Source of the DNA: Catenulispora acidiphila DSM 44928
GTDB taxonomy: Bacteria; Actinomycetota; Actinomycetes; Streptomycetales; Catenulisporaceae
DNA length: 64,000 nucleotides
Reading direction: 5' to 3'
NCBI RefSeq assembly: GCF_000024025.1
Contig: NC_013131.1
Coordinates: 8,722,229-8,786,228 of the forward strand
Shown here in pieces: positions 45,946 to 61,948 of the stretch (positions are counted from its first letter, which is position 1; the number at the start of each line of letters is the position of its first letter). Position numbers and translations under genes: made by a program. Under the pieces are notes generated by a model. The model was not told the origin of the DNA and ran no database searches. It saw only the letters and a list, made by a program, of their open reading frames with translations.

Positions 45946-45960
45946 GAAAGGGCCCAGGTG

Positions 45961-46842
45961 ATGACGAGACACGAACTGAGCGGGCCGGACCGGCTCGCCT
46001 TCGAGGGGATCCACCGGCTGAAAGTGGTCACCACCTCGGGCCGGGTCGACGTGGTCGGAGCCGGCGAGGACGGCGCGGCCGTGGTCGACGTGACCCGGGT
46101 CAAGGGCGAGGAGCCGCTGGTCGTCGCGGCCGAGGACGGCGAGCTGACGGTGCGGCACGGGGAGTTCCGGCCGAACGTGCTCGGCTGGCTGATGCACGGC
46201 CGCAAGATCGAGGCCGACATCTCCATCCAGGTGCCGCCGGACTGCCTGGTGGACGTCACGGTGGTCTCCGGGCCGCTGGTGGTGTCCAACCTGCACGAGC
46301 GCACCCGGGTCCAGGGCGTGTCCGGCGAGATCACGCTGGCCCAGCTGCACGGGCCCACCGACGTCAAGACGGTCTCCGGGGCGATCACCGCCGAGAGCGT
46401 GACCGACGACCTGAGCGCGCACACCGTCTCCGGGGCGATCACCGTGATCGCCCTCGGGACGCAGAACAAGATCAAGGCCGGGACCACCTCGGGCGCGATC
46501 ACCGTGGACCTGGAGGACGGCACCGACGCCCCGCGCCTGGAGCTGAACGTGGTCTCCGGGCAGGTCATCGTCCGCGCCCCGGAAGATGCGAACCTGGAGG
46601 TGGACATGTCCACGATGAGCGGCCGCACGGTCACCACCTTCGACGGTCTGGACTCCCAGCCGCTGTTCGGGAACAAGCAGATCCCCTTCACCAAGCCGCG
46701 GCAGCTGTCCGGACGTTTGGGTACCGGGCAGGGGAGGCTTAAGGCACGGGCGGTGTCCGGTGACATGACGCTGCTGAGAAGGGCCGTCGACCCCGAGCTC
46801 TCGGGCTCGGACGTGGACGGCGAAGATGGAGAGGATCGTTAG
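45961..46842 (+). CDS. DUF4097-family beta-strand repeat protein
   Basis: The ~293-residue protein is built of repeating strand turns with the family signature: LKVVTTSGRVDVVG, VTVVSGPLVV, VQGVSGEITLAQLHG, VKTVSGAITAES, AHTVSGAITVIAL, and KARAVSGDMTLL. It probably forms a beta-solenoid. Bacterial relatives often sit beside PadR or envelope-stress genes; the function is unknown. GTG 45958 and ATG 45961 are both possible. Its stop abuts the PadR start (TAG then ATG). Confidence 0.85.
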   Translation: MTRHELSGPDRLAFEGIHRLKVVTTSGRVDVVGAGEDGAAVVDVTRVKGEEPLVVAAEDGELTVRHGEFRPNVLGWLMHGRKIEADISIQVPPDCLVDVTVVSGPLVVSNLHERTRVQGVSGEITLAQLHGPTDVKTVSGAITAESVTDDLSAHTVSGAITVIALGTQNKIKAGTTSGAITVDLEDGTDAPRLELNVVSGQVIVRAPEDANLEVDMSTMSGRTVTTFDGLDSQPLFGNKQIPFTKPRQLSGRLGTGQGRLKARAVSGDMTLLRRAVDPELSGSDVDGEDGEDR

Positions 46843-47676
46843 ATGGCACCCGTCTTCGGACACGGACGGCTGCGGCTGTACCTGTTGAAGCTCCTTGCCG
46901 AGAGCCCCAAGCACGGGTACGAGATCATCCAGCAGCTCAAGGAGCGGTTCCAGGGCCTGTACGCGCCCAGCGCCGGCACGGTGTACCCCCGCCTGTCGCG
47001 CCTGGAGAGCGAGGGCCTGATCCGGCACGAGACCGACGAGCGCGGCCGCAAGGTGTACCACATCACCGACGCCGGCCGCACCGAACTCGCCGCCCGCGCC
47101 GACGACATGGACGCGCTGGAGACCGAGATCCGCGAATCGGTCAGCAGCCTCGCCGAGGAGATCCGCGACGAGGTCAAGGAATCCGCCCGCCACATCCAGG
47201 AGGAACTGCGCGCCGCCGCGGCCGAAGCCCGCACCGAGGCGCGCACGGAGTCCCGCACCGAGCCCCGCAGCGAGCCCAAGCGCGACCACGCCGGCCCCGC
47301 CCACCCCCCGGCGGACCGCTCGCAGTGGGGCAAGGACGAATGGCGCGAGTGGAAGCGAGCCCAGAACGACTGGAAGGAACAGTGGAAGGACCAGTGGGCC
47401 GCCCAATGGCGCGAACACTGGCAGGACGAAGCCACCCGCTGGCAGCGCTTCGCCCAGGACAGCGTCGACGACTGGACCGGCCGCCGCCCCCGCGACCGAG
47501 CCGACCGCGAACAACTCGACGAACTCCGAGCCACCTTCATGCACTTCCGCGACGAAGTCCGCACCATGGCCCGCGAACACCAGGCCGACATCCCGGTGAC
47601 CCAGGACCAACTGAACGCCGCCCGCGAAGTCCTCGAACGCGCCGCCCGCGAGCTGCGCGACATCTTCCGCGGCTGA
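46843..47676 (+). CDS. PadR-family transcriptional regulator with long C-terminal extension
   Basis: Residues 1-~90 form a PadR winged helix (LRLYLLKLLAESPKHGYEIIQQLKERF, then SAGTVYPRLSRLESEGLIRH, ERGRKVYHITDAGR). The rest, to 277, is highly charged helix with a Trp/Lys/Gln-rich patch (WKEQWKDQWAAQWREHW) and a coiled-coil end. This is longer than usual PadR proteins and may bind a partner. It is translated immediately after the DUF4097 gene and probably regulates both. Confidence 0.88.
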   Translation: MAPVFGHGRLRLYLLKLLAESPKHGYEIIQQLKERFQGLYAPSAGTVYPRLSRLESEGLIRHETDERGRKVYHITDAGRTELAARADDMDALETEIRESVSSLAEEIRDEVKESARHIQEELRAAAAEARTEARTESRTEPRSEPKRDHAGPAHPPADRSQWGKDEWREWKRAQNDWKEQWKDQWAAQWREHWQDEATRWQRFAQDSVDDWTGRRPRDRADREQLDELRATFMHFRDEVRTMAREHQADIPVTQDQLNAAREVLERAARELRDIFRG

Positions 47677-48115
47677 CGGTCCCGGGCCCGCGGGAAGGGG
47701 CGCCGCCGCGCCGGCCGCGCTGGGTGCGGCCGCGCGGGGCGGGCTGCGCTGACCCGCGGCTTCGGTTCGGGGGGCTGCGGGTTGGCGTGGGGGCGGGGCA
47801 GGTTGAGGGCTGAGTTCGGGCTCTGGCTCCGGGCTAGGCTCGAGCGCAGGCTTCGGCATGAGGTTGGGGCTCGGGCCCTGACTTCGGCAGGAGATCAGGG
47901 TTCGACTCGGGCTCCAGCTCCACACTCCAGGTTCTGGCTCCGGGCTCCGGCTTTGGGCCGGCAACCGGTTCGGGTACACGGGGCATGTTCTCCGGGCGGC
48001 AGCTCGGGTTGCGGAGGGGGCGGCGGCGCGTGCCGGGAGTGATCCTGGTGCGCGCCGTTTGCGTTCCGTGGGGGTCGGGGGGATGCGGCATCATGGCGGG
48101 TGGGAGGGAGCCATC
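47677..48115. other. Intergenic region upstream of the MoxR-vWA operon
   Basis: About 440 bases rich in degenerate GGCTC/GGGCTC units. A GGCCGC/GCGGCC hairpin near 47718-47738 may terminate the padR transcript. No consensus promoter was found for the operon that follows. Confidence 0.45.
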
Positions 48116-50863
48116 GTGGTCGCAGGATTGGTCGACGCTGTGCACTTCGCGGGGCGGGATGATGCGTGGGCGGTGCTGCGGGGCCTTGGGGAGGCGGGGG
48201 TCGCCGAGGGGATCGCGGGGGCTTCGCTGCCCTTGTGCGTGGCGGTGAGTGATTTCGTGCTCGAAGAGCCTTCTTCGGCGACGGCGGTGGCGTTGGCTCG
48301 GCGGGCTCTGGCCGATGAGACCGTGGCTGATCCGGACACCGTGCTGCGGGCGCTGATCCGGCTGGCGGATCCGGTGGTCGACGAGGCGCTGGTGCGGACC
48401 GAGGGCAAGCGGCCGCGGGCGTGGGTCCTGGCCGCGCTGGTCCGGGACCGGCGAGGCGCGGATGGCCGGCCGGTGATCGCCCCCGGCATCGAGCAGTTCC
48501 TGCGCGGACAGCTGGTGCGCGCCACACGGCGCCACGCGGGACGGGACAACCCGACACCGGCACGCGTCGAGGCCGAGATCACCAGAGCCGCATGCTACGC
48601 CGACGACGCCGACCTGGTCGCCACCGCGCTGCCGCTCGCCATGCGGTTCCAGCTGATGCCCCCGGTGATGCGGGGACTGCTGACGCTGCGCGACCACGGG
48701 CTCCTCAGCTCGCTGTGGGAGGGGTACGGCGGGCTGCGCGAAGTCGCCACCACGGTCATGGCCACGAGCGTGGGGCACTACGGCCCGTGGTGGGAGCCAG
48801 TGCTCGCCTTCGGCGATACCGGCGACGACGCGGCGCTTGTCAAGGCACCGCGCCGCCTCCGCACCGACAGGCTGCCGCCGGCGCACGACGCGGACTCCTG
48901 GACCAGGCCGAACATCGGATCGCAGCACTACGAGATGCCCTGGGACGCGGTGCTCGAGTACGCCGCGCTGGTCGGCAAGGGCGAGGAGGGCACGCAGGCC
49001 GGGCAGGCGACGTCGCGCGGTCTCGACGAGGCGGCGGCACGCGAGGACGTCCCGCAGGACGTGCGGGCCACGTTCGAGGAGCGGTACCCGCGCGCAGTGT
49101 TCTGGTCCGCGCGCCCCGACATCGAGACTCTGCGGCGCGCGCATGACTCCGCCGAGCGCTTGACCCCGGCGACGCGGCACTTCGCCACCCGCGAACTGCT
49201 GCGCCGCGGTCTGCTTCACGGCTCGCTGAGTGCGAAAGAGGCAGTGGCACACGCGGAGCCGGCGGCGGAACTCTTAGCGCTGGCGCTGCCGACCCCGCCC
49301 GGACTAGCGAAGTACTACACGGCGAAGGGCAAAAACAGCTTCGCGCCGCACTTCGTCCACATCCCGGCGGAGGCCGACGAGCGGTACCAGGCGGAGCTAC
49401 GCACGGCGGTCGCCGAGGCGATCGGAACGGACCCGGCACGCTGGCTCAAGGTACTGACCCGAGTCGCAGCATGGGAAGGAAGCCTCGCCACACTGCTCGA
49501 CGCTGTCGACGCCGGAGAGCCGCTGCCACAGCGACGCGGGTCGCGATGGCCGCGCGGGGTCGATCCGGCGGCCGTGCTGCTGGAGGTCGCGCCGGAGGGA
49601 TTGGTCGCGGCGCTGCAGGAGGCGGCGGGGCAGAGTGGCGCGAAACCATTTGCGGACAACGGAGGGCTTGGCGCCGACCCGGCGCAATCCTCCAGCCCTG
49701 AAAGCCGTGCCCTGACAGGCGTCCTCACCCGCATCCTCGACCGAGGTCCCGCACCTCGCTGGCTCCTGGACCTCGCGGTCGGCCCGCATGGAACCTTCGC
49801 CATGCGGCTGGCGGCGGCCCGCAATCCGGCGGCGACGGTCGGCACGCTCTGGCGGCTGGCCGACCGCGAGCCCGCCGAACCCGGCGTCCTGGCGGCGGTG
49901 TATCTGCATCCGCTGGCCTCGCTGGAGCTGCGGATCGCGGCGGTCGTGCGGTCCGAGACCGCCGGCGGCCTGTATCCGGGCTTGGTGCGGCGCCTGGTCA
50001 CCCGGTACGCCGAACCCGCGCTGCTCCAGCCGGCCCTCGAATCGCACGACCCCGAGCTGCTGCACTCCGTGCTGCGGCGCAGCAACCGCTCGCTGCAGAC
50101 CGACCGGCGCGTCGTCGGCTACGCCCACCTCGCCGCGGCCGCCGGTCCGGAACCGGTGTGGGCGCTGGAGTTGGAGCGCGCCGGCAGCCTGGAGCGCATG
50201 CACGAGGCGGTCCGCGCCTCGATGAGCTCCCACAATGACGAGCCCTTGCAGGCAGCCGCCGCCGGCATCGCACGCCCGGACCCCGAGCGGATCACCGAAC
50301 TCTGGGACGCCGGCTTCCAGCAGACACGTCCCGACACCGCCGACCGCGTCCGCAAGCATCTCGACGGCCGCCCCGAACGCTGGCTGCGGCTCGCCGAACC
50401 CGGGACCACGCTGCACGGCATGCTCGCCGAGCTCGAAGGTGGGGAGCCGCACGTGCCGCAGCCACGCCGGGACTCCGACACGCCCGCGCCGCCAATAGCC
50501 CCGCCGCCGACCACAGCCACCCCCACGCCGCGCGACCCCAAGCCGCGCCTCAGCCAGACCCCGAGCCTGCTGCCGCCCCTGCCCCGAAACAAATCCGAAC
50601 CCGAACCCGAATCCGGAGCCGGAGCCGGACTCGAACCGGCAGCCAGCGCTATTCCAGCTCCCGCACCGCACCACCCCACCACGCACCCCAAAGCAACAGC
50701 CGGCGCGACACCAACCCCCGCCCCGCAGAAACCCACCGCGCACCCCGAACCGACAGCCAGCGCGATATCAGCTCCCGCTCTGCACCACCCAGCCCCGCAC
50801 CACCCCACCGCGCACCCCGAACCGGCCTCCCCCGGCGAACCCCCGAAGCCGCCCGCCGCGTGA
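48116..50863 (+). CDS. Large helical-repeat-like protein of the MoxR-vWA operon
   Basis: About 915 residues, Ala/Leu/Arg-rich and probably an alpha-helical repeat scaffold (ADDADLVATALPLAMRFQL, LAVGPHGTFAMRLAAARNPAATVGTLWRLADREP). Near residue ~700 it has GPEPVWALELERAGSLERM and then HLDGRPERWLRL, segments that recur in the next gene. The last ~130 residues are low-complexity Pro/Ala/Thr/Glu. The GTG at 48116 has a GGGAGGGAG site. An in-frame TTA codon at 49274-49276 is a rare codon in such genomes and could bring tRNA-dependent (bldA-type) control. It overlaps the next gene by four bases. Family not recognised. Confidence 0.75.
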   Translation: MVAGLVDAVHFAGRDDAWAVLRGLGEAGVAEGIAGASLPLCVAVSDFVLEEPSSATAVALARRALADETVADPDTVLRALIRLADPVVDEALVRTEGKRPRAWVLAALVRDRRGADGRPVIAPGIEQFLRGQLVRATRRHAGRDNPTPARVEAEITRAACYADDADLVATALPLAMRFQLMPPVMRGLLTLRDHGLLSSLWEGYGGLREVATTVMATSVGHYGPWWEPVLAFGDTGDDAALVKAPRRLRTDRLPPAHDADSWTRPNIGSQHYEMPWDAVLEYAALVGKGEEGTQAGQATSRGLDEAAAREDVPQDVRATFEERYPRAVFWSARPDIETLRRAHDSAERLTPATRHFATRELLRRGLLHGSLSAKEAVAHAEPAAELLALALPTPPGLAKYYTAKGKNSFAPHFVHIPAEADERYQAELRTAVAEAIGTDPARWLKVLTRVAAWEGSLATLLDAVDAGEPLPQRRGSRWPRGVDPAAVLLEVAPEGLVAALQEAAGQSGAKPFADNGGLGADPAQSSSPESRALTGVLTRILDRGPAPRWLLDLAVGPHGTFAMRLAAARNPAATVGTLWRLADREPAEPGVLAAVYLHPLASLELRIAAVVRSETAGGLYPGLVRRLVTRYAEPALLQPALESHDPELLHSVLRRSNRSLQTDRRVVGYAHLAAAAGPEPVWALELERAGSLERMHEAVRASMSSHNDEPLQAAAAGIARPDPERITELWDAGFQQTRPDTADRVRKHLDGRPERWLRLAEPGTTLHGMLAELEGGEPHVPQPRRDSDTPAPPIAPPPTTATPTPRDPKPRLSQTPSLLPPLPRNKSEPEPESGAGAGLEPAASAIPAPAPHHPTTHPKATAGATPTPAPQKPTAHPEPTASAISAPALHHPAPHHPTAHPEPASPGEPPKPPAA

Positions 50864-52395
50864 ACGCCCCAGCCCTCATCCTGAACCTGCTCCACGCGGC
50901 GCGGCGCGAGGACGTCGCCCCGGTTCTGGCGCTGCTGTCCGATGCCGAACTGGCGGCGGGGCTGGCCTCCGAGCACTGCGATCCTCAGCTGCGCACCGTC
51001 GCGGTGGACCGCGAAGCCCTGTGCCACGCCTTGCTCGATCCGCGCGAGACCCCTGAGGACCTGCCCACCAAGGCCGGCGGGGTTCAGGGCATGGTGCGTC
51101 TCGCCGCTCGCGCCCCGTATCAGACCGTGCTGCCCGGGGGCATCACGCCCTATGGCCGTCCGCAGGCCGATCTGCGGCACCGCCTCGCCGCCGGGCTCAA
51201 CGCCGCCCTGGGTACCGATGCGTGGCGTTGGTACGGCGCCATGTGCCTGGTCGACGTGTGGTCGGGTTCCTTCGGCGCGCTGCTCGACGAGGTCGCTGGC
51301 TGGTCCACGGAGTCTCAGCTCCCCAAGAGCTCTATGCGCTTCCGTCTAAAGGGTCAGGTGTTCCTGCCCGGCGTGCTGCTCGCGATGGCTCCTCCGGCGG
51401 TCGTCGCGGCTGCGCTTCCCTACACCGCGGAGCGGTCCGTGGGGATGATCCAGGGCCTGCTCATACACGCGCCCTACCACCCCGCCTATCAGGACTACGC
51501 CTTCGGTCCGGACGGGTCCGACTACGCGCGCCAGTCACTGTGCCAGAGCGTCGGCACGCCGCTGGCGGTCGCCCACGAGTTGCTGGATCGCGAGCTGTTC
51601 CACCAGAACGTGGAGGCGGTCGCCTACGGGCACGACGATCTCGCTCTTCGCCTGCGCATCTATCGGGACCCGGACTCCGACACTCCATGGCAGACCAGCA
51701 GGCTGGACCATACGACGCCCGAGGAGTTCTACGCACTGCTGTCCGCTACAGAGACGGCCGAGGAGATCTTCGACCTGCTCAGCATCCTGCGCCGCGCCAT
51801 GGAGCGCACTCCCGCGATCGGGAAGCTGCGCATCTTCGCCTACAGCCGGCTCGCGCAGCTGGCCGGGCCGGAGCCGGTGTGGACTCTCGAGCTGGCATCC
51901 GCGGGCGGTGTGGAGCTGTTGGTCCATCCCGCGGTCCGCGCCTCCATGGCCGCCGGCGATATCGCGCCGATCGTCGCCGCCGCCGAGGCCGCCGCCGAGA
52001 ACGTGCCGGGTCCGCCGCCTCCGGCGCCGAATCAGGACTCGCTGACCGACTGGCCTTTGGAGGACGCGGTGCGCGGCGGTCTCGACGGACGCCCGGAGCG
52101 ATGGCAGACAATGCTCGAATCATATGACAAAGCAACCGAATCGCCCCTCGCCCTCGTGCAATGGGCAACAGGCCAATCAGTTCGACCGGCGGCCCGCGAC
52201 AGAGAAGACTTGACCCAGAGCACGAACCGGCCCGAGAACCAGCCTGAGAACCAGCTCGAGAAGCAGCCTGAGAACCAGCCCGCGAACCGACCCCCGCACC
52301 GCCCAACGAACCCCGCACCGCACCACCCAACGAACCACCCGACGCCCCCACCCCCGCCGCCCGCCCCGACCCCCGTGCAGGAGGACGCCGCATGA
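50860..52395 (+). CDS. Second helical-repeat-like protein, related to the preceding gene
   Basis: The 511-residue protein starts at a GTG overlapping the previous stop (GTGA). Its C-terminal part has GPEPVWTLELASAGGVELL, AVRASMAAGD and GLDGRPERWQTML, clearly related to matching segments in the upstream protein. The N-terminal half carries AWRWYGAMCLVDVWSGSFGALLDE and is specific to this gene. The tail is a Pro/Asn/Gln repeat (NQPENQ) of ~60 residues. It is likely a scaffold or substrate adaptor for the ATPase. Family not recognised. Confidence 0.75.
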   Translation: MNAPALILNLLHAARREDVAPVLALLSDAELAAGLASEHCDPQLRTVAVDREALCHALLDPRETPEDLPTKAGGVQGMVRLAARAPYQTVLPGGITPYGRPQADLRHRLAAGLNAALGTDAWRWYGAMCLVDVWSGSFGALLDEVAGWSTESQLPKSSMRFRLKGQVFLPGVLLAMAPPAVVAAALPYTAERSVGMIQGLLIHAPYHPAYQDYAFGPDGSDYARQSLCQSVGTPLAVAHELLDRELFHQNVEAVAYGHDDLALRLRIYRDPDSDTPWQTSRLDHTTPEEFYALLSATETAEEIFDLLSILRRAMERTPAIGKLRIFAYSRLAQLAGPEPVWTLELASAGGVELLVHPAVRASMAAGDIAPIVAAAEAAAENVPGPPPPAPNQDSLTDWPLEDAVRGGLDGRPERWQTMLESYDKATESPLALVQWATGQSVRPAARDREDLTQSTNRPENQPENQLEKQPENQPANRPPHRPTNPAPHHPTNHPTPPPPPPAPTPVQEDAA

Positions 52396-53813
52396 AGACC
52401 CACGAGTCGGACCGCCGCTCGCGGCGCCTCCCGGTCAGCGCCACCGACCGCAAGGCGCTGGCGGCGTGGCAGCCCGCCGAGCCGGAGACGATCGCCGAGG
52501 CCGTGCGGCTGAAGGAGGCGGCGCTCGTCGACTTCGGCATGGAGTCCTCGGCCATCGCCGGCTGGATCTACTCCAAGTGCGCGCACCAGGTGCCCACCAC
52601 CGCCATCGAGACCGCCGCGGTGATGGCCGCCGGCGACGGTACCTGCCTGCTGCTGTTCAACCCGGACTTCTTCGTCGAGCTGGGGCTGGACGGGGTGAAG
52701 TTCGTGCTCTTCCACGAGGCGCGGCACCTGATCCAGCGGCATCTGTTCACCGAGCCGGAGCTGCGCGAGGACCCGGTCTTCGACATCGCCATCGAGTGCA
52801 CCATCAACCACGTCGCACTGACCCGGCTGCGCCGCCAGAGCCTGCCGGTGGCCGGCGGCGAGCCGACCGGGGTGGACCCGCGCAAGGTCTTCGCCAGGTA
52901 CCACGCGGACCTCACCGCGCAGGGTCTGACCCCGTTCTCCTACGAGGAGTTCATCCACACCGACATGGGCTGCTACACCGAGCTGCGCCGGATGAAGCAC
53001 CCGCCGACGCCGCCGCCGATCTGCGTCCACGAGCTCCTGCAGGAGCTGCAGGACGAGCTGGCCGACGCCGAGACCATCGCCCGGATCGGCAACGAGGTGT
53101 TGGCGAACGTGCTGCTGGCCGGCAAGCGCGGGGTGCGCGAGGCGCGCTCGGAGCTGCTGGACCTCATCGCGCGCACCGAGGGCGCCACCGAGCGGCTGAG
53201 CAAGCTGTGGGGCGATCTGGGCGCCGGGATGATCCGCGGGCAGACCCAGCGGACCCGGCGGGTGGACTGGTGGCAGCGCTGGCTGGTGGACGTGCTGGCC
53301 TCCAAGCTCGCCGAGGGCGAGCGCCTGGTCTACCCGAAGAAGCGCGGGGCGGTGCTGGCCGCGCTCGGCGAGGATCCGACGCTGTCCCGGCGCGGCCCGG
53401 AGCGGCACCGGGTGGTGGCGATCGCGGTGGACGCCTCCGGGTCGATGCCGCCGCCGGTGGTGGACTGGATCGCCTCGCTGGTCGGGCAGCTCGACGGCGT
53501 CGAGGCGCACTGGCTGTCCTTCGACGCCGCGGTGGTGCCCTTCGCCCCGGGCGACCCGCTGGTCGGCGGCGGCGGGACCAGCTTCCAGGCGGTCGCCGAC
53601 TACCTGGAGGGCCGCGCGCCCTCGGCCCGGACCGGCGAGCCGTTCGAGGAGACGCTGGACGCCGTCATCATGGTCACCGACGGCATCGCCCCGCACATCA
53701 CGCCCGCCGAGCCGGACAAGTGGATCTGGCTGATCACCGAGCACGGCGACGACTGGCCCGAGAGCCACACGCCGCAGATGGCCTGTCACACCGTACGAAC
53801 GGGGGACCGTTGA
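52392..53813 (+). CDS. DUF2201-type metallopeptidase-like/vWA protein
   Basis: The 473-residue protein has a zinc-peptidase-like N-terminal domain with His108-Glu-x-x-His112 (LFHEARHLIQRH) and the following DIAIECTINHVAL, and a C-terminal vWA-like domain with a MIDAS motif DASGS at 347-351 and a later MVTDGIAP. Proteins of this family are usually paired with MoxR ATPases, which load or remodel them. Whether the peptidase is active is unknown. The ATG overlaps the upstream stop, and the next gene overlaps its stop. Confidence 0.85.
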   Translation: MKTHESDRRSRRLPVSATDRKALAAWQPAEPETIAEAVRLKEAALVDFGMESSAIAGWIYSKCAHQVPTTAIETAAVMAAGDGTCLLLFNPDFFVELGLDGVKFVLFHEARHLIQRHLFTEPELREDPVFDIAIECTINHVALTRLRRQSLPVAGGEPTGVDPRKVFARYHADLTAQGLTPFSYEEFIHTDMGCYTELRRMKHPPTPPPICVHELLQELQDELADAETIARIGNEVLANVLLAGKRGVREARSELLDLIARTEGATERLSKLWGDLGAGMIRGQTQRTRRVDWWQRWLVDVLASKLAEGERLVYPKKRGAVLAALGEDPTLSRRGPERHRVVAIAVDASGSMPPPVVDWIASLVGQLDGVEAHWLSFDAAVVPFAPGDPLVGGGGTSFQAVADYLEGRAPSARTGEPFEETLDAVIMVTDGIAPHITPAEPDKWIWLITEHGDDWPESHTPQMACHTVRTGDR

Positions 53814-55744
53814 GCGAGTACAGCACCGGCCAGACCGCCCTGCCGCCGGAGGAGGAGCACTTCGACACCGGCTTCGGCCAGGACGGCAGGCTGCCGCGCC
53901 AAGGCGGCGGCGGGGGCGCCGGGACCGCGCGCGCCGCCGCGGCCCGGCCCTCGGCCCTGGAGGCGTTCATCGACGCGATGATCGACCTGGGCCAGACCGG
54001 GCAGATCTTCGGCGAGCACGGCATCGGCAAGACCGCGACGTTCGCCGCGCACATCGCCCGCGCGTACGACGACACCGAGCTGGTCTACGTCCCGGCCGCG
54101 AACCTGGCGCCGGACGACCTGCTGGTGAACGCCCCGGTGCGGGACCCGCGCAGCGGCGAGCTGGTCCTGCGGCAGCTGGTGATGCGCCAGCTCAAGCCGG
54201 GGCGCAACTTCGTGCTCCTGATCGACGACTCGCTGCAGGCGGGTCCGGCGATCCAGTCGCAGCTGATGCAGATCGCCTGCAACTGGACCCTGGGCGAGCA
54301 CGACCTGCGGGCTCTGGGCTGCATCGGCGTCTTCTTGGCGGACAACGAGTCGCTCGCCGAGACCGCGGCGCGGCGCAGCGACTTCGCGATCCTGGACCGG
54401 ATGGTCACCATCAAGGTCACCGCGAACGACACCGCCTGGCGCGAGGCGCTGCGCCGTGCGTTCCCGCAGTTCGACCTGACCGCGGTCTTCCGTCTTTGGG
54501 CCGCTCAGCCCCCGGAGATCCGGCGGCTGCTGTCCCCGCGCACGCTGGAGCACATCCTGGCCAACGCCGCCGAGGGCTTTCCCCTCGTCTGGGGTCTGCC
54601 GCTGCTCAACGGCACGCGGCTGCGGCTGGCTCTGCCGGCCGCCGAGGGCACCCGGGCCAAGGAGGTGGACCGCACCGGGGAGATCCTGGACGCGATCGCC
54701 GCGGCGCTGAACGTCCCGAACCGGTCCGCCATCGCCGACCCGGTGCGGCGCCTGGTGCGCGCGGCGCTGAAGAACCGGTGGTGCGTGCTGGTCCAGGGTC
54801 CGCCCGGCTGCGGCAAGACCGAGGTCGTCAGGGCGCTGATCCAGGAGGTGCTGCGCCGCGACCCGCTGTACTTCTCGCTGCCGGTGACCAACGTCGAGGA
54901 CCTGTGCGCCCCGGTCCCCTCCCCCGACGGCACCCTGGACAACCTGCTGGCCGCCGGCTTCACCGGCGATGAGCCCAAGGCCGTGGTCTGGGACGAGTAC
55001 AACCGGCCCAAGGACAAGGCGGCGTTCGCCCGGCTGATGGAGATCACCCAGGAGTGGTCGGTGGCCGGCCGGCCGATCCGCGGGCTGCGGGCCCAGGTCG
55101 CGCTGCAGAACCCGCCCTACCACGTCGGCCGCAAGCTCTTGGTCGCGCGCAACAACATCGCCCAGGCCTCGCGCTTCACCGCCTCGCTGGACATCACCCC
55201 GGAGGACATCCCGGCGAACGAGTGGCTGATCGCCAAGTACGGCCCGGTCGCCGAGACCGTCCTGGAGTGGTGGAAGAACGACATCGACGACGAGGGCCGC
55301 GCCTGGATCACCAAGCGCACCCTGGAGCGCCTGATCCGGCTGCACGGCCGCGGCCTGCCGCTGCAGCAGGGCCTGGTCTACCTCGGCGACGGCGAGTACG
55401 CGCCGGTCCCGCTCGGCGGGCTGACCGCGCGCCTGGCCGGCTCCCAGCGCACCGGGCTGAAGGAGCTGGCCGCGGACGTCGACACCTGGGAGCGGCGGCT
55501 GGCGCTGGCCGTCTCCGGCGACGCCGAGGGCGACGACGCCTCCGACGTGGTCCACCAGGTCTTCGCCAACGCCGAGCTGTCCCAGCTGAAGAAGCAGCGC
55601 GACGTGGTGATCCGGCTCGCGACGCACCTGCCGCCCAAGCTCCGCGCCACCTATCTGGTCGGCGCCTCGGAGGACGCGCAGTCCTTCTGGGTCGGTGTCC
55701 TCGCGGCTTGCCGGGCCAGGCAGGGTTCGGCCAGGATTCTGTGA
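53810..55744 (+). CDS. MoxR-like ATPase with two AAA modules
   Basis: The 644-residue protein has Walker A motifs at 68-75 (GEHGIGKT) and 330-337 (GPPGCGKT), with Walker B-like LLIDDSLQ and VVWDEYNRP. The C-terminal helical part (VVHQVFANAELSQLKKQRDVVIRL) resembles the lid of MoxR proteins. Tandem modules in one chain are unusual for classical single-module MoxR. The start is a TTG at 53810 that overlaps the vWA stop (TTGA), preceded by GGGGGA. It should power conformational change of the vWA protein. A tRNA-like sequence begins three bases after the stop codon. Confidence 0.85.
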   Translation: MSEYSTGQTALPPEEEHFDTGFGQDGRLPRQGGGGGAGTARAAAARPSALEAFIDAMIDLGQTGQIFGEHGIGKTATFAAHIARAYDDTELVYVPAANLAPDDLLVNAPVRDPRSGELVLRQLVMRQLKPGRNFVLLIDDSLQAGPAIQSQLMQIACNWTLGEHDLRALGCIGVFLADNESLAETAARRSDFAILDRMVTIKVTANDTAWREALRRAFPQFDLTAVFRLWAAQPPEIRRLLSPRTLEHILANAAEGFPLVWGLPLLNGTRLRLALPAAEGTRAKEVDRTGEILDAIAAALNVPNRSAIADPVRRLVRAALKNRWCVLVQGPPGCGKTEVVRALIQEVLRRDPLYFSLPVTNVEDLCAPVPSPDGTLDNLLAAGFTGDEPKAVVWDEYNRPKDKAAFARLMEITQEWSVAGRPIRGLRAQVALQNPPYHVGRKLLVARNNIAQASRFTASLDITPEDIPANEWLIAKYGPVAETVLEWWKNDIDDEGRAWITKRTLERLIRLHGRGLPLQQGLVYLGDGEYAPVPLGGLTARLAGSQRTGLKELAADVDTWERRLALAVSGDAEGDDASDVVHQVFANAELSQLKKQRDVVIRLATHLPPKLRATYLVGASEDAQSFWVGVLAACRARQGSARIL

Positions 55745-55746
55745 AC

Positions 55747-55829
55747 GGTCCCGTAGCGCAGAGGCAGGCGCACCGCTCAGATCCACTCAAGCGACGCGGG
55801 GAACGCCGGTTCGAATCCGGCCGGGGCCA
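55747..55829 (+). ncRNA. tRNA-like RNA with swollen anticodon arm
   Basis: The acceptor GGTCCCG/CGGGGCC pairs over all 7 positions (one U-G) with discriminator A. The D arm GCGC/GCGC has an 8-base AGAGGCAG loop. The T arm is GCCGG-TTCGAAT-CCGGC with the TTCRA consensus. Between them a normal 5+7+5 anticodon arm cannot form: CCGC (55773-55776) pairs with GCGG (55796-55799) around 19 bases, or CGCT (55774-55777) with AGCG (55790-55793) around 12. The variable region would be GGAAC in the first model. CCA is not encoded. It sits exactly between the MoxR stop and the next ribosome site, so it is probably transcribed with the operon and cut out. It may not function in translation. Confidence 0.75.
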
Positions 55830-55844
55830 CCTGGGGAGGACCGC

Positions 55845-57209
55845 ATGGATCCGGAGGAGCTGAGCCGCGCGCTGTCGGCGCTGACCGCGCTGCCCGTCGA
55901 CGATCCGGTCCGGCTGCGGGTGGAGCGGGTCGCAGAGTCCTTCGTGCGCGACGGCCGCCGGCGGCGGCAGAAGGAGCAGCGGCTGCGGCGCCAGGCGGCG
56001 GACCGGGCGGTGCTGGCGGCCTCGGCGACCGGAGCCGCCGAGCGGCGCGAGGACGCGCCGTTGGAGGTGCCGGACGACGCGCACCGGGCAGACCCCGACG
56101 CGGACTCGGTCGGCACGCTGCTGCGCCCGCAGCGCTGCTACGTCTGCAAGCGGCACTACACCCGGGTCTCAGCGTTCTACCACCAGCTCTGTCCCTCCTG
56201 CGCCGCCGAGAACCTGGCGTGGCGCTCGGCCCGCACCCCGCTGGACGGCCGGCGCGCGCTGGTCACCGGCGGCCGCGTGAAGATCGGGTTCCACGTCGCG
56301 CTGATGCTGCTGCGCGACGGGGCGGCGGTGCGGGTGGCCACGCGGTTCCCGCACGACGCCATACGCCGCTTCCGGCAGGTCGAGGACAGCGCGAAGTGGC
56401 TCGACCGGCTGACCGTCACCGGCCTGGATCTGCGGGATCCGCGCCAGGTGATCGAACTCTGCGACGGGCTGCTGGCCGAGGGCGAGCCGCTGGACATCCT
56501 GATCAACAACGCCGCGCAGACCGTGCGGCGCCCCGAGTCCTCCTACGCGCCGTTGATCGCCGCCGAGCGGTCCGCGGCGGCGGAGCTCAGCGGTGGCGGC
56601 GGGCTGCGAGAGCTGGCGCCGATCGCCGGGTACCACGGCGCGGGCGCCGACGCGGTGCCGCACAGCGCCGAGCTGGCCGTGGCCGGCGGCGCCGTCGACG
56701 AGAACGGCCTGCTGCCCGACCCCTCGCCGCACAACTCGTGGTCGGCGGAAATCGGCGAGCTGGACGCGGTCGAGCTGCTGGAAGTGCACCTGGTGAACGC
56801 CGTCGCGCCCGCGCTTCTCGCCGACCGGCTGCTGCCGCTGATGACCGGCTCGCCGTCCGCCCGGCGCTACATCGTCAACGTCACGGCGGTCGAGGGGCGC
56901 TTCGAGGTGCGCAACAAGACCGCCGGGCATCCGCACACGAACATGGCCAAGGCAGCGCTCAACATGCTGACCCGCACCAGCGCCGAGGCACTGGCGCGCC
57001 GCGGCGTCTACCTGAGCAGCGTGGACACCGGCTGGATCACCGACGAGAAGCCGATGCCGCGCAAGGCCCGGCACGCCGAGTCCGGTTTCCGTACGCCGCT
57101 GGACATCGTCGACGGCGCGGCGCGGATCTACCACCCGATCGTCAGCGGCGAGCGGGGCGAGCCGTTGTTCGGCGTGTTCCTGAAGGACTATCGGGCGGTG
57201 GCGTGGTGA
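55845..57209 (+). CDS. Zinc-ribbon SDR-fold protein lacking the catalytic Tyr
   Basis: About 454 residues. The N-terminus is a helical basic segment (RDGRRRRQKEQRLRRQ), then a zinc ribbon CYVCKRHY...LCPSC (Cys98, 101, 116, 119). From residue ~135 comes an SDR Rossmann fold with TGGRVKIG and NNAAQ. At the expected YxxxK site the sequence is T365-N-M-A-K369, so the catalytic Tyr is replaced. The substrate-loop region 250-310 is enlarged. Such a protein may bind NAD(P) or RNA instead of acting as an ordinary dehydrogenase. The ATG at 55845 has GGGGAGGA directly after the tRNA-like RNA. Ten bases separate it from the next gene. Confidence 0.82.
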   Translation: MDPEELSRALSALTALPVDDPVRLRVERVAESFVRDGRRRRQKEQRLRRQAADRAVLAASATGAAERREDAPLEVPDDAHRADPDADSVGTLLRPQRCYVCKRHYTRVSAFYHQLCPSCAAENLAWRSARTPLDGRRALVTGGRVKIGFHVALMLLRDGAAVRVATRFPHDAIRRFRQVEDSAKWLDRLTVTGLDLRDPRQVIELCDGLLAEGEPLDILINNAAQTVRRPESSYAPLIAAERSAAAELSGGGGLRELAPIAGYHGAGADAVPHSAELAVAGGAVDENGLLPDPSPHNSWSAEIGELDAVELLEVHLVNAVAPALLADRLLPLMTGSPSARRYIVNVTAVEGRFEVRNKTAGHPHTNMAKAALNMLTRTSAEALARRGVYLSSVDTGWITDEKPMPRKARHAESGFRTPLDIVDGAARIYHPIVSGERGEPLFGVFLKDYRAVAW

Positions 57210-57219
57210 GCGGGTCGTC

Positions 57220-58377
57220 ATGGTGAGCGGCTTCGAGGCACGTCCCGCCGAGGAACTGGCGCCGGTCCTGGCCTGGCTGCGGCGCGGCGAGGCGGTGCGC
57301 GCCCGCACCGCGTTCCCGGCCGGCACCGCGCTGCCCGACGGCCGCCTGGACCTGTGCAAGCAGGACCTCGGTCCGCTCGGCGCCGCCGCGGTCGCCGACG
57401 CGCTGCCCGAGGGCGGCGGCCCGGTGAAGCACCTGCTGCTGGGGACCGACGGGCTCGGCGACGGCGGTGCGGCCGCGGTGGCGCCGAAGGCCGTCGCGGC
57501 CCGCGTCGAGACCCTCTACCTGGGCTGCAACAACATCGGCGGCGGCGGGGTCTGCGAGATCGCGAACCAGCTGATCGCCGCCCCCGGCGTGGTGAAGGCG
57601 CTGTGGCTCAAGCGCAACCCGGTCGGCGCGGACGGCGTGCGCGCGGTCGCCGAGACCGTGCGCGCCGGGACCGTCCTGCGCACCATCGACCTGACGCAGA
57701 CCGGGCTGGCCGCGCCGGACGTCGCGGTGCTGGTCGACGCGATGATCGCGGCCGGCGGCGGCGCCCGCGCGATCGAACGCCTCTACATCGGCGGCAACCG
57801 GCTCGGCGCCGACGGGGCGCGGGAACTGGCCCGGCTGCTGGCCGCCGGAGCCGTCGCAGAGCTCTACGTCTCGGCCGCGCGCCTCGGCGACCCCGGCGCG
57901 CAGGTGCTGGCGGCTGCATTGCGCAGCGCACCGCCCGGAGCACTGCGCCGGCTGTCGGTGGCCAGCAACGGCATCGGCCCGGCGGCACTCGCCGAGCTGG
58001 TCGCGGCCGCCGCCGCGGCGGGGGTCGAGCTGGTCGACGCCGGACGCGTGAAGGCCGCCGCCATCCTCGCCGCCGACGACAACCACCTCGACGAGCCCGG
58101 CGCCGCGACCATCGCCGCCGCCCTGGCCGCCGCTCCGCACCGCCTCGCCTTCCTCAACCTGCGCTACACCGACCTCGGCAGCCCCGGCGCGCTCCGCCTC
58201 CTCGAAGGCGCCCAGCGCGCCGCCACGCCGACCCGTTTCCTGCTCGGCGGCGGTATCGCCAAGCGGGTCAAGAAGGAACTCACCGCGCTCGCCGCCGAGA
58301 TCCCGGCGTCAGTGTTCGACGTCGCGCCGGACGTCCGGGCGATCCGCAGCGTCTACCGGACCGCGCCGCCCGCCTGA
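57220..58377 (+). CDS. Leucine-rich-repeat (RNase-inhibitor/RanGAP-like) protein
   Basis: The 385-residue protein has ~28-residue LRR units with Leu/Asn ladders: KHLLLGTDGLGDGGAAAVA, ETLYLGCNNIGGGGVCEIA, KALWLKRNPVGADGVRAVA, ERLYIGGNRLGADGARELA, RRLSVASNGIGPAALAELV, and AFLNLRYTDLGSPGALRLL. This is the horseshoe type used for protein binding. It lies ten bases downstream of the zinc-ribbon SDR gene and probably belongs to the same operon as a sensor or adaptor. Confidence 0.88.
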   Translation: MVSGFEARPAEELAPVLAWLRRGEAVRARTAFPAGTALPDGRLDLCKQDLGPLGAAAVADALPEGGGPVKHLLLGTDGLGDGGAAAVAPKAVAARVETLYLGCNNIGGGGVCEIANQLIAAPGVVKALWLKRNPVGADGVRAVAETVRAGTVLRTIDLTQTGLAAPDVAVLVDAMIAAGGGARAIERLYIGGNRLGADGARELARLLAAGAVAELYVSAARLGDPGAQVLAAALRSAPPGALRRLSVASNGIGPAALAELVAAAAAAGVELVDAGRVKAAAILAADDNHLDEPGAATIAAALAAAPHRLAFLNLRYTDLGSPGALRLLEGAQRAATPTRFLLGGGIAKRVKKELTALAAEIPASVFDVAPDVRAIRSVYRTAPPA

Positions 58378-59492: not shown

Positions 59493-59536
59493 CTGCCACG
59501 GCGCTGAATCAGCCCTGCCACGGCTCTGAATCAGCC
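59493..59536. repeat. 22-bp tandem duplication at a convergent gene end
   Basis: CTGCCACGGCGCTGAATCAG and its copy (one mismatch) are repeated at 59493 and 59515. The second copy contains the stop codon of the leftward HelD copy 2. Confidence 0.9.
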
Positions 59537-61948
59537 TTCGACGTCGATGATCCCCAACCGCTGTGTCGCCCGGGTCAGCGCCACGTAGAGATCGTTCTCG
59601 CCGTGCTGGGCGGTGACGATCGCCGCCGGGTCGACGACCAGCACCGTGTCGAACTCCAGTCCCTTGGCCTGGCGCACCGGCAGCACGACGGTGCGCCGCT
59701 CCAGATCCGGGTCCGAGCCGTACCCCGCCTCGGGCAGCCGCGCCGACACCGCAGCCGCCACCTCGGCGAGGCGTTCGGCGGGCACCAGCACCGCCATCCG
59801 TCCGGTGTCCCCGGCGGCCAGCTCCGCGTCCTCGCGCAGCGCCAGCTCCGCGACCTTCTCAGCGAGCGAAGACGCCGGCACCGACACCCGCCAGGGCTCC
59901 TCGCCGCTGGAGCGCACCGAGCGCGGCGGCTTCAGCCCCGGGTCGATGCGCTCGAGCACCTCCGCGGCCAGGGCCATGATCTCCGAGGGCGTGCGGTAGT
60001 TCACCGTCAGCTCCGCCAGCCGCCACCGGTCCCCGACGTGCGGCGCGAGCGTCGTGTCCCAGGACGCCGCACCGGCCGGGTCGCCGGTCTGCGCCACGTC
60101 GCCGACCAGGGTCATCGACCGCGCCGGGCAGCGCCGCATCAGCAGCCGCCAGGCCATCGGCGAGAGCTCCTGCGCCTCGTCCACGATGACGTGCCCGAAG
60201 GTCCAGGTCCGGTCGGCCATCGCGCGCTCGGCGACGCTGCGGCCGTCCACCTCCTCGAACCGCTCGGCCAGCATCTCGGCCGAGACCAGGTCCACGGCGG
60301 TGACGATCTCCTCGCGCGGGTCCTCCAGGTCGATCGACCGGGAGCCCTCGGCCACCTCCAGCGCGCCCTGCGCGTAAGCGATCCGGGCCCGGCGCTCCGC
60401 CTCGGCGCGCGCCGCCGCCTCGGCGGTGTCGGAGTCGCCGAGCAGTTCCGCGGCCTCGTCCAGCAGCGGGATGTCGGCGGCCGACCAGCCGCCGGGGGTG
60501 CGGATCAGCAGGTCGATCTCAGCGTCCGTCAACAGCGGCGCGCCCTCGGCGCTGGCCTCGCCGACCTCGCCAACCGCCCCGACCTCGTCCACGGCCTCGC
60601 GCAGCAGTTCCGGCGTCGCGAACAGCTCGGCCAGCATCCGCTGCGGGGTCAGCTGCGGCCACAGCCAGTCCAGCGCCTCCTGCACGCTCGGCTCGTCGAC
60701 CAGCGACGCCGCGACCTGGTCACGGTCGGCCCGGCCCAGGAACACGCCGTCGGCCATCTCGGCGGGGTCCTCGCCGAGCTCCTCGGCGATCAGGTTCACC
60801 ATCGCCAGCGTCTCCTGGCGGTGCGGGTCGTCGTTGAGCCGGTCCACGACCTGCCCGGCCAGGGTGTCGATGATGTGCTCGGCGAACGCCTTGCGCCCCA
60901 GGTTGGGCAGCCGGCTCGCCTTGCGCCCCAGCTCGCGGGCGGCCTCGCAGGTCTCCCGGTCCAGCCGGTACTTCACGCCCTCGTAGACCACTTCCAGCAC
61001 GTCCTCGGGCACGCGCTGCCGGGCCCGCACCGCACCGGCGATCAGCTCGGCCATCGCCGCCCGGCCCTTGATCTCGGCGACCTCCGGCGCGTCGGCGCGC
61101 GAGGCCCGCACTCCCGGGAACATCTCCCCGACCGTGGACAGCACCGCACTGGTCTCCCCCAGCGCCGGTAGCACATGCGAGACGTAGCGCAGGAAGGTCG
61201 GGTTCGGCCCGACGATCAGCACGCCGCGCTTGGCCAGCCGCTCGCGGTAGGTGTAGAGCAGGTAGGCCGCGCGGTGCAGCGCCACGGCGGTCTTGCCGGT
61301 CCCGGGACCACCCTGCACGACCAGGACGCCGCGCAGCTCCGACCGGATCGCGTGGTCCTGTTCGGCCTGGATGGTCTCCACGACGTCGCGCATGCGGCCG
61401 GTGCGCCCGGCGGTCAGCGCCGCCAGCAGCGCGCCCTCGCCGACCAGCCCGGAGGCGTCTCCGTCGGCCGCGACGTCCAGGTCGAGCACGTCGTCGTCGA
61501 TCCCCACGACGGTCCGGAACCGGGTGCGGATGCTGCGCCGCCGCCGCACGCCCTGCGGCGCCGCGGAGGTCGCCACGTAGAAGGGCCGCGCCGCCGGGGC
61601 ACGCCAGTCCAGCAGCAAGGGGTCGAAGTCGCCGTTCTCGTCGAGGATGCCGATCCGCCCGACGTAGCGGCGTTCGCCCTCGGCGAGGTCCAGGCGGCCG
61701 AAGCAGAGCCCTTCCTCGGCCGCGTCCAGCTGGGCGAGCCGGCCGGCGCCGCCGGCGGCCAGGCCGTCGCGCTCGGTGCGGGCCTGCTGGGTCCCCCCGG
61801 AGGCCTGCAGCACGCCGGACAGCTGACCTGCGGCGTGGGCGCGCAACGTGTCGAGCCGGGTGTACAGGAGGTCGAGGTACCGCTGTTCGTGGAGGATTTC
61901 TTCCGTGCCCCTTGACAAAACGCCTCCCGATGCCTCAGAATCAAGCAC
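59531..61948 (-). CDS. HelD-type UvrD-like helicase (copy 2)
   Basis: The 805-residue SF1 ATPase shares the HelD order of copy 1: N-terminal coiled coil, CFGRLDL, LLLDWRAPAARPFYVATS, Walker A GGPGTGKT at 213-220, VIVDEAQELSPMAWRLLMRR, and C-terminal AKGLEFDTVLVVDPAAIV with YVALTRATQRL. HelD proteins act on RNA polymerase and some give rifamycin tolerance; that role here is unproven. The GTG at 61948 and a TTG at 61918 are both possible. The TTG has GGGAGG close upstream. It follows the MFS gene on the same strand, and an inverted repeat lies just upstream. Confidence 0.9.
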   Translation of the reverse strand: MLDSEASGGVLSRGTEEILHEQRYLDLLYTRLDTLRAHAAGQLSGVLQASGGTQQARTERDGLAAGGAGRLAQLDAAEEGLCFGRLDLAEGERRYVGRIGILDENGDFDPLLLDWRAPAARPFYVATSAAPQGVRRRRSIRTRFRTVVGIDDDVLDLDVAADGDASGLVGEGALLAALTAGRTGRMRDVVETIQAEQDHAIRSELRGVLVVQGGPGTGKTAVALHRAAYLLYTYRERLAKRGVLIVGPNPTFLRYVSHVLPALGETSAVLSTVGEMFPGVRASRADAPEVAEIKGRAAMAELIAGAVRARQRVPEDVLEVVYEGVKYRLDRETCEAARELGRKASRLPNLGRKAFAEHIIDTLAGQVVDRLNDDPHRQETLAMVNLIAEELGEDPAEMADGVFLGRADRDQVAASLVDEPSVQEALDWLWPQLTPQRMLAELFATPELLREAVDEVGAVGEVGEASAEGAPLLTDAEIDLLIRTPGGWSAADIPLLDEAAELLGDSDTAEAAARAEAERRARIAYAQGALEVAEGSRSIDLEDPREEIVTAVDLVSAEMLAERFEEVDGRSVAERAMADRTWTFGHVIVDEAQELSPMAWRLLMRRCPARSMTLVGDVAQTGDPAGAASWDTTLAPHVGDRWRLAELTVNYRTPSEIMALAAEVLERIDPGLKPPRSVRSSGEEPWRVSVPASSLAEKVAELALREDAELAAGDTGRMAVLVPAERLAEVAAAVSARLPEAGYGSDPDLERRTVVLPVRQAKGLEFDTVLVVDPAAIVTAQHGENDLYVALTRATQRLGIIDVEG

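Follow-up and report, generated by a model that had tools for sequence, protein, structure and literature searches.

What role does a tRNA-like RNA play inside an operon that encodes a MoxR ATPase and a vWA protein? In the window analysed here, 64,000 nucleotides of the Catenulispora acidiphila DSM 44928 chromosome, the ORF calls give the gene order H1-H2-vWA-MoxR-RNA-SDR-LRR, all on the + strand. H1 (48083..50863) is a large all-helical protein whose family is not assigned; the ATG at 48083 (MRHHGGWEGA, as in relatives) is a likelier start than 48116, and a longer form could begin at a TTG at 48059. H2 (50860..52395) is a shorter H1 paralogue, helical by prediction. The vWA protein (52392..53813) combines a DUF2201-type metallopeptidase-like N-terminus (HExxH) with a complete MIDAS, and the MoxR-like protein (53810..55744) has two P-loop (AAA) domains. 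The 4-base overlaps said to join these four genes are present at 50860-50863, 52392-52395 and 53810-53813, the last with a TTG start. The RNA lies directly behind MoxR, as had been proposed: the MoxR stop codon (55742-55744) and 2 nt are followed by the candidate tRNA mimic (55747..55829), after which CC comes next. The ATG of the zinc-ribbon SDR (55845..57209), in which TxxxK replaces YxxxK, is 15 nt past the end of the RNA, and the predicted 10 nt separate the SDR from the LRR (LRR_6) protein (57220..58377), which among the proteins is the best marker of the RNA family.

The RNA at 55747-55829 was matched as a tRNA by Rfam (45.6 bits, E = 1.7e-6 over the whole window) and scored 74.6 bits under our family model R1. 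ARAGORN missed it because the anticodon arm is enlarged; in the minimum-energy fold this arm has an irregular stem and a 14-nt loop. The RNA is no accident of the C. acidiphila genome, and was present in 10/10 Catenulispora genomes. The tRNA look-alike RNAs in Actinobacteria are one family, not recognised before, with a constant body and exchangeable anticodon arms. Family RNAs showed the cloverleaf and the conserved D and T loops of canonical tRNAs, and the cloverleaf fitted 79 diverse members: 92.4% of pairs could form, and double changes numbered 260, compared to 74 in shuffles. The D- and T-arms were near-invariant across the family and anticodons varied freely: between species, RNAs at matching array positions differed at 37-40% of anticodon sites and at 0-2% of T-loop sites, and the family contained 48 distinct anticodon loops. 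In 112/125 RNAs the anticodon arm was regular (5 bp, 7-nt loop) and had U33; the arm was broken or enlarged in members of a second architecture (described below) and in the window RNA. An acceptor of 8 bp with a bulge suited most vWA-linked RNAs better than one of 7 bp. Arms of the Trp, Glu, Asp and Ala types were identical or almost identical to host tRNA arms. General copying of host anticodon arms was rejected (7 matches against 4.5 expected, p = 0.12, all distinct loops and 54 host tRNAs), and close copying, clear only for some types, is retained for these four alone.

The anticodon was not in agreement with the identity elements of the body. Up to six anticodons were found on a single acceptor stem, and the discriminator agreed with the amino acid of the anticodon in 30/89 RNAs. 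G3:U70 was missing in 16/19 Ala-type RNAs and U73 in 19/20 Gly/Cys-type RNAs, and Ser-type RNAs were without the long variable arm. Since the anticodons vary on a constant body and the identity elements are unlinked from them, the family RNAs are, as judged from their sequences, tRNA mimics rather than ordinary tRNAs.

We surveyed gene neighbourhoods, as the original prediction had suggested. Homologous operons carried the RNA at 47/80 MoxR loci and in 10/10 Catenulispora genomes, and SDR and LRR genes stayed linked in relatives, though their order was often rearranged. Neither of the two outcomes that the original prediction had named as refuting it was therefore seen. Relatives in Streptomyces, Kitasatospora and Pseudonocardiaceae had 1-5 such RNAs per locus, in tandem arrays immediately 5' of the SDR, with one further RNA divergent from the vWA gene. 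In Catenulispora genomes, tandem RNAs at a second locus had a shorter H1 paralogue 5' of them. A second RNA-bearing architecture had the order RNA–[SDR]–LRR–ankyrin protein–MoxR–DUF2201/vWA, so that RNA, LRR, MoxR and DUF2201/vWA are retained in both divergent architectures. The LRR family was found in 18/395 genomes, and in 16/18 the RNA was directly upstream of LRR or SDR-LRR (LRR against RNA, 16/2/8/369; Fisher 9e-21). In a sister group of MoxR-vWA loci the RNA, the SDR and the LRR were all three missing, as would be expected if they form one module. Where the SDR occurred without adjacent LRR and MoxR-vWA genes, RNAs were absent (L215-L219) or decayed (L220 and L221, the latter on a short contig). 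The association within MoxR loci goes back to few independent events, the tree showing 4 changes (p of about 0.25 by sign test). A Fisher test on MoxR loci taken at face value was dropped, as it amounts to about four events on the tree, and the argument is therefore carried by the pair of architectures, by the LRR survey and by the RNAs that have decayed. The idea that the SDR is the RNA's partner was rejected: many genomes have this SDR family on its own, with no RNA, and so the LRR/MoxR/vWA part follows the RNA better. Family RNAs were also solitary on Streptomyces chromosomes and linear plasmids, and the gene downstream of such orphans was not consistent. No LRR gene was found on plasmids, and the sole match to the family RNA in phages was a phage tRNA-Arg at 76%.

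A TANNNT promoter-like box was present at a fixed position upstream of 40/41 arrays (shuffled mean 1.5), and also at the divergent (vWA-linked) and second-architecture RNAs. The vWA-linked RNA is on the opposite strand and reads away from vWA, and the distance from array to SDR start is about 30 nt.

The vWA protein, which also contains HExxH, had an invariant MIDAS (D347xS349xS351, T396 and D430) in 10 diverse homologues, and the vWA and MoxR genes were adjacent in nearly all loci. MoxR is a MoxR-type AAA ATPase (AAA_5, E = 2.5e-8 by Pfam) with the P-loops GEHGIGKT and GPPGCGKT and Walker B DD/DE; AAA_5 was also found in the MoxR of the second architecture. Aligning the vWA protein to PDB sequences gave no match. 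The SDR has zinc knuckles of two CxxC (C98/C101 and C116/C119) and T365-xxx-K369 where YxxxK is expected. The altered active site had thus been seen correctly, but it is not specific to this system, being found also in SDR genes far from such operons (L219, L226). H1 had no Pfam, NCBIfam or PADLOC match, H2 likewise had none in Pfam, and the predicted structure of H2 (pLDDT 67.9) had no significant fold match. Profile comparison failed to support homology of H1/H2 to CL3, the Streptomyces counterpart, for which a well-predicted structure (pLDDT 94) also gave no fold match. No recognised RNA-binding domain was found among the system proteins. PADLOC reported no defence family over the operon parts beyond matches of MoxR to generic ATPase P-loops, and hence no match to a described anti-phage system.

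One member of the family has been published. In Chen et al. (PMC9262613), tRNA-Asp-AUC of Streptomyces sp. SPC6 is presented in 2022 as a new, expressed tRNA, a stable small RNA with 48,557 reads, the same level as tRNA-Asp-GUC, which raises antibiotic yields and is restricted to 32 streptomycetes. The context of the mutagenesis primer given there, GTCGCGCCCACGC-A-TCAAGCTGGAGGACGTCG, is within one base of the L144 and L129 RNAs, which identifies tRNA-Asp-AUC as a family member. RNAs of the L144/L129 type are followed by LRR, an ankyrin-type protein, MoxR and DUF2201/vWA; the published cluster reads LRR / PE-PGRS / MoxR / hypothetical (PMC9262613). The portions consulted say nothing of a wider RNA family, an SDR module, the first architecture or anticodons uncoupled from identity.

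We suggest that the RNAs are putative decoy or sensor tRNAs in a surveillance system built on MoxR–vWA and powered by ATP, a reading that we find plausible but short of probable. It is a more tentative thought that this is an immune or stress system, with a diversifying decoy-tRNA array as sensor and damage to the bait turning on an AAA-driven vWA/metallopeptidase effector. The RNA-sensing or tRNA-protecting role originally proposed for the locus is likewise presumptive. In the chain of protein binding, bait function, trigger and effector step that we infer, RNAs with a canonical tRNA elbow and a swappable anticodon arm would be made from their own promoters or, here, be processed out of the operon transcript. 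One of the system proteins (the LRR protein, the SDR, or helical H1/H2 or their counterpart) would bind the constant body, and the variable anticodon arm would be bait for anticodon nucleases or for phage- or toxin-encoded tRNA-binding factors. If the bait were cut or captured, the complex would be released or change shape, which would allow the MoxR motor to push the vWA/metallopeptidase protein onto its target. This decoy reading is favoured by the covarying family, the LRR linkage, the two architectures, the decay of RNAs without LRR and MoxR-vWA, the promoter-like boxes, the variable arm on a constant body with identity uncoupled, the expression of the published relative, and the host-like Trp-, Glu-, Asp- and Ala-type arms. 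Against it stand host-arm copying not above chance over all loops, the claim by Chen et al. (PMC9262613) that one member helps to decode GAU, the solitary RNAs, the few independent events, and the lack of an RNA-binding domain or a PADLOC family.

Chen et al. (2022; PMC9262613) read their RNA as an accessory tRNA that is charged, decodes particular codons and boosts translation of certain genes. GAU-rich eGFP was translated better in S. coelicolor expressing this second-architecture RNA, for which help in GAU decoding is claimed, and stable expression together with a regular arm and U33 in 112/125 members agrees with such a role. We consider it unlikely, because anticodons are uncoupled from discriminator, G3:U70 and variable arm, up to six share an acceptor stem, most vWA-linked RNAs have the 8-bp bulged acceptor, and the arm is broken or enlarged in second-architecture members and the window RNA; the LRR/MoxR/vWA linkage, and decay without it, would also be left unexplained. 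A constant body with variable loops would also suit an RNP, in which the tRNA-like body is the scaffold and the loop pairs with or tethers RNAs that MoxR-vWA remodels or degrades; by analogy, the combination of a vWA protein, large helical proteins and a tRNA-like RNA recalls the components of the Rsr-Y RNA system. This is doubtful, given that TROVE is absent by Pfam, H2 and its counterpart have no fold match, and many of the RNAs have a plain anticodon loop of 7 nt that conserves U33, which would make a poor guide.

The position of the window RNA between MoxR and SDR, where it would share one transcript, and of arrays about 30 nt ahead of the SDR start, would fit a cis-acting element, either an RNase P/Z processing site or a leader setting downstream SDR/LRR expression. 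However, the vWA-linked RNA, on the other strand, has its own promoter-like box, punctuation needs no tandem copies with diversified anticodon arms, and orphan RNAs lack a consistent downstream gene, all of which makes this improbable. Least credible is hitch-hiking, in which the tRNA-like genes are integration-site remnants of a mobile element bearing the proteins. The RNA-LRR-MoxR cluster is called an integrative-element relic by Chen et al. (PMC9262613), and family members do occur on linear plasmids. Yet relics of integration are expected to be partial and drifting, and the RNAs are full-length and tandem, with compensatory changes and promoter-like boxes across several actinobacterial families, so that we regard this as very improbable.

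If the decoy reading is true, RNAs annotated as tRNAs, or overlooked, would belong to a protein machine as its RNA component, and the published antibiotic-yield 'new tRNA' (PMC9262613) would need re-reading. In multicellular actinobacteria the MoxR–vWA systems, abundant but little understood, would gain a defined ligand, and the question of their trigger would become directly testable through the anticodon arms.

The combination was originally called undescribed, and our searches of the literature likewise found no description of such a system, except that a single family member has appeared in print under the name of a new tRNA (PMC9262613), and we found no counterpart of the RNA–protein assembly. 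The protein halves are variants of an already known type. NorQ/NorD, RavA/ViaA, CbbQ/CbbO and the MoxR-vWA conflict systems (PMC7159879) likewise have an AAA MoxR beside a MIDAS vWA protein. Unlike those pairs, the present system has dedicated RNA genes, a vWA protein that bears a DUF2201 metallopeptidase-like domain, a MoxR with two P-loop domains, and LRR, SDR and helical proteins; the conflict-systems paper (PMC7159879) mentions no RNA component, and 'tRNA' appears in it once, in a reference title. No known third component or effector domain of a VMAP-type conflict system was found by Pfam or PADLOC in the operon's other proteins. In Ro60/Rsr-Y RNA (YrlA) systems and the RtcBA RNA-repair operon, a vWA-containing protein is genetically tied to a tRNA-like RNA. 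The present locus similarly has a tRNA-like RNA gene beside a vWA-containing protein gene, but it differs in lacking TROVE, in having many RNAs per locus whose anticodon arms have diversified, and in its AAA motor. A Ro60-like system was rejected, since H1/H2 are without TROVE by Pfam and H2 and CL3 without a fold match. Phage tRNAs with changed anticodon loops escape host tRNases (PMC10264068), and there, as here, the anticodon arms of tRNA-like genes seem moulded by anticodon nucleases; unlike those phage tRNAs, the RNAs described here are host-encoded, use one body for all anticodons and are linked to MoxR-vWA.

Successive genes of the window operon, encoding the helical proteins H1 and H2, the vWA protein and the MoxR-like ATPase, share 4-base overlaps, as the original prediction had stated. 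H1 and H2 are paralogues (H2 being the shorter), and a database search with either returned no match. The HExxH motif (H108, E109, H112) and the complete MIDAS (D347, S349, S351, T396, D430) of the vWA protein were invariant in ten diverse homologues, and MoxR contains two P-loops. An 83-nt tRNA-like RNA (55747-55829) begins two bases past the MoxR stop codon. It was scored as a tRNA by Rfam (45.6 bits; E = 1.7e-6 over the whole window) and was not detected by ARAGORN, because its anticodon arm is enlarged, with an irregular stem and a 14-nt loop. Downstream of the RNA follow the SDR gene (ATG at 55845) and the LRR gene (57220). In the SDR the zinc ribbon has two knuckles and T365-xxx-K369 stands where YxxxK is expected; both features were also seen in SDRs outside such operons. 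Adjoining the operon in this 10.5-Mb genome is a large ATPase/helicase-like gene (59531-61948, minus strand) that appears to resemble HelD and is kept in Catenulispora relatives; a DUF4097 and PadR regulator gene pair upstream (45958-47676) is conserved only among Catenulispora relatives.

Searching the DNA of 60 relatives recovered the RNA at full length and 93-100% identity in 10/10 Catenulispora genomes, compared with about 76-88% protein identity for the adjoining SDR; although the RNA was the sole query, weaker matches in other genera adjoined SDR or vWA genes. In a neighbourhood survey of species genomes, 47 of the 80 MoxR loci had the RNA. As a rule, one copy diverges from the vWA gene, and at least two tandem copies closely precede the SDR gene. 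RNAs of different loci are one conserved family: when 79 diverse copies were aligned by structure, 92.4% of cloverleaf pairs were formed, and compensatory double changes occupied 260 cells, against 74 in shuffles. Family members scored about 68-92 bits under R1, the covariance model of the family. Since canonical tRNAs reached 63 bits in the Catenulispora acidiphila genome and 65-68 in some others, a match of 63-68 bits counted as a member only if it had the D-loop of the family or stood beside the expected genes. Many Streptomyces have a gene for a WhiB-type regulator immediately 5' of the RNA array (L036:13870-14157; protein cluster 16, 15 loci). RNA-less MoxR-vWA loci encode, immediately 3' of MoxR, a different large unannotated protein of about 630-670 aa (protein cluster 39; L092:11875-13893, L110:11767-14271).

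Architecture 1 joins vWA–MoxR to SDR, LRR and a helical protein, which is H1/H2 in the window and the unrelated, well-folded CL3 in other genera. Tracing RNA matches from 395 genomes of the class revealed architecture 2, RNA(s)–[SDR]–LRR–helical/ankyrin protein–MoxR–DUF2201 metallopeptidase/vWA. In a third context, the second Catenulispora locus (L111-L116; G000:C1:1756600-1756840 in the window's genome), an H1 paralogue is followed directly by 2-4 tandem RNAs, and MoxR/vWA genes are absent from the vicinity; L114 and L115 each include one RNA whose anticodon is UCA. Orphan RNAs also exist. Those with a CCA anticodon on Streptomyces chromosomes (L117, L118, L119, L121, L128, L130, L131) have the D-loop AGAGGTCGACGC or a close variant, a promoter-like box each and no consistent neighbour. 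Others lie on Streptomyces linear plasmids (L266, L267 and L268: NZ_CP102516.1, NZ_CP108839.1, NZ_CP108444.1; 55-72 bits), two of them at distances of about 5 and 10 kb from the end of the plasmid. No feature stands under these matches in the gene table of the plasmids, which does not include RNA genes.

Among MoxR loci, RNA and SDR co-occurred (46/1/5/28, Fisher 2e-15); this co-occurrence amounts to four changes on the tree, and independent pairs cannot reach significance. The case for association therefore rests on architecture 2, the LRR survey, decayed copies and promoter-like boxes. The LRR family is rare (18/395 genomes), and the RNA lay directly upstream of LRR or SDR–LRR in 16 of the 18; of the remaining genomes, G036 has an array about 9 kb off and G381 a weak copy of 47.9 bits. 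Counting RNA matches of at least 68.5 bits, the table for LRR and RNA across the 395 genomes was 16/2/8/369 (Fisher 9e-21). No RNA was found within about 10 kb of SDR loci without LRR, vWA and MoxR (L215-L219). Decayed copies lie beside SDR at L220:9422-9571 and L221:4160-4252 (a 5.9-kb contig), LRR and MoxR-vWA being absent from the stretches examined. Of 41 SDR-linked arrays, 40 had a promoter-like TANNNT box at a fixed place 5' of their first RNA (shuffles: mean 1.5, maximum 6). Spacers were mostly 6-16 nt long, and the arrays usually lie about 30 nt ahead of the SDR start. This box also precedes vWA-linked, architecture-2 and orphan RNAs. At the Catenulispora main operon the box site reads CAGGAT and falls within the MoxR gene, suggesting that this RNA is probably processed out of the operon transcript. 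In our view the RNA is very likely a functional component of the MoxR–vWA system; a search of one open-access collection found no paper describing the family as such.

Family RNAs could instead be accessory tRNAs, charged and decoding particular codons. Chen et al. (2022; PMC9262613) describe tRNA-Asp-AUC of a desert Streptomyces, and the mutagenesis primer given there agrees with the architecture-2 RNAs L144 and L129 to within one base. Its expression at the level of tRNA-Asp-GUC (48,557 reads), which proves expression for a relative, and the improved translation of GAU are the best support for this reading. The same source lists LRR, PE-PGRS, MoxR and a hypothetical gene downstream in 32 genomes, and reads the cluster as an integrative-element relic. 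A regular anticodon arm was present in 125 of 131 distinct RNAs, with U33 in 112 and 18 anticodons in all. The anticodons are, however, uncoupled: up to six occur on one and the same acceptor stem, and at equal array position 37-40% of anticodon sites differed between species, against 0-2% in the T-loop. The discriminator base suits the anticodon's amino acid in 30/89; G3:U70 is missing from 16/19 Ala types and U73 from 19/20 Gly and Cys types, and the variable loops of Ser types are short. For most vWA-linked RNAs a bulged 8-bp acceptor is a better fit than one of 7 bp; those of Pseudonocardiaceae fit after a one-base register shift read from the sequences. Some arms are identical to the arms of tRNA-Trp, -Glu and -Asp in the host, but general copying of host arms was not found (7/48 distinct loops, p = 0.12). 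The family RNAs are thus tRNA mimics rather than ordinary tRNAs.

Of the agents that act on the anticodon arm, anticodon nucleases are best known, and the anticodon loops of phage tRNAs seem to have been shaped by them (PMC10264068). That the elbow of these mimics is constant while the anticodon arm is interchangeable suggests that a host factor binds the body and that something else is meant to meet the arm. They might therefore act as decoy or sensor tRNAs, with an ATP-driven vWA/metallopeptidase effector acting downstream of them, a mechanism that we put forward tentatively, as somewhat less probable than even. The existence of the RNAs, their linkage to the protein genes and the uncoupling of their anticodons are shown here, and binding, trigger and effector are inferred.
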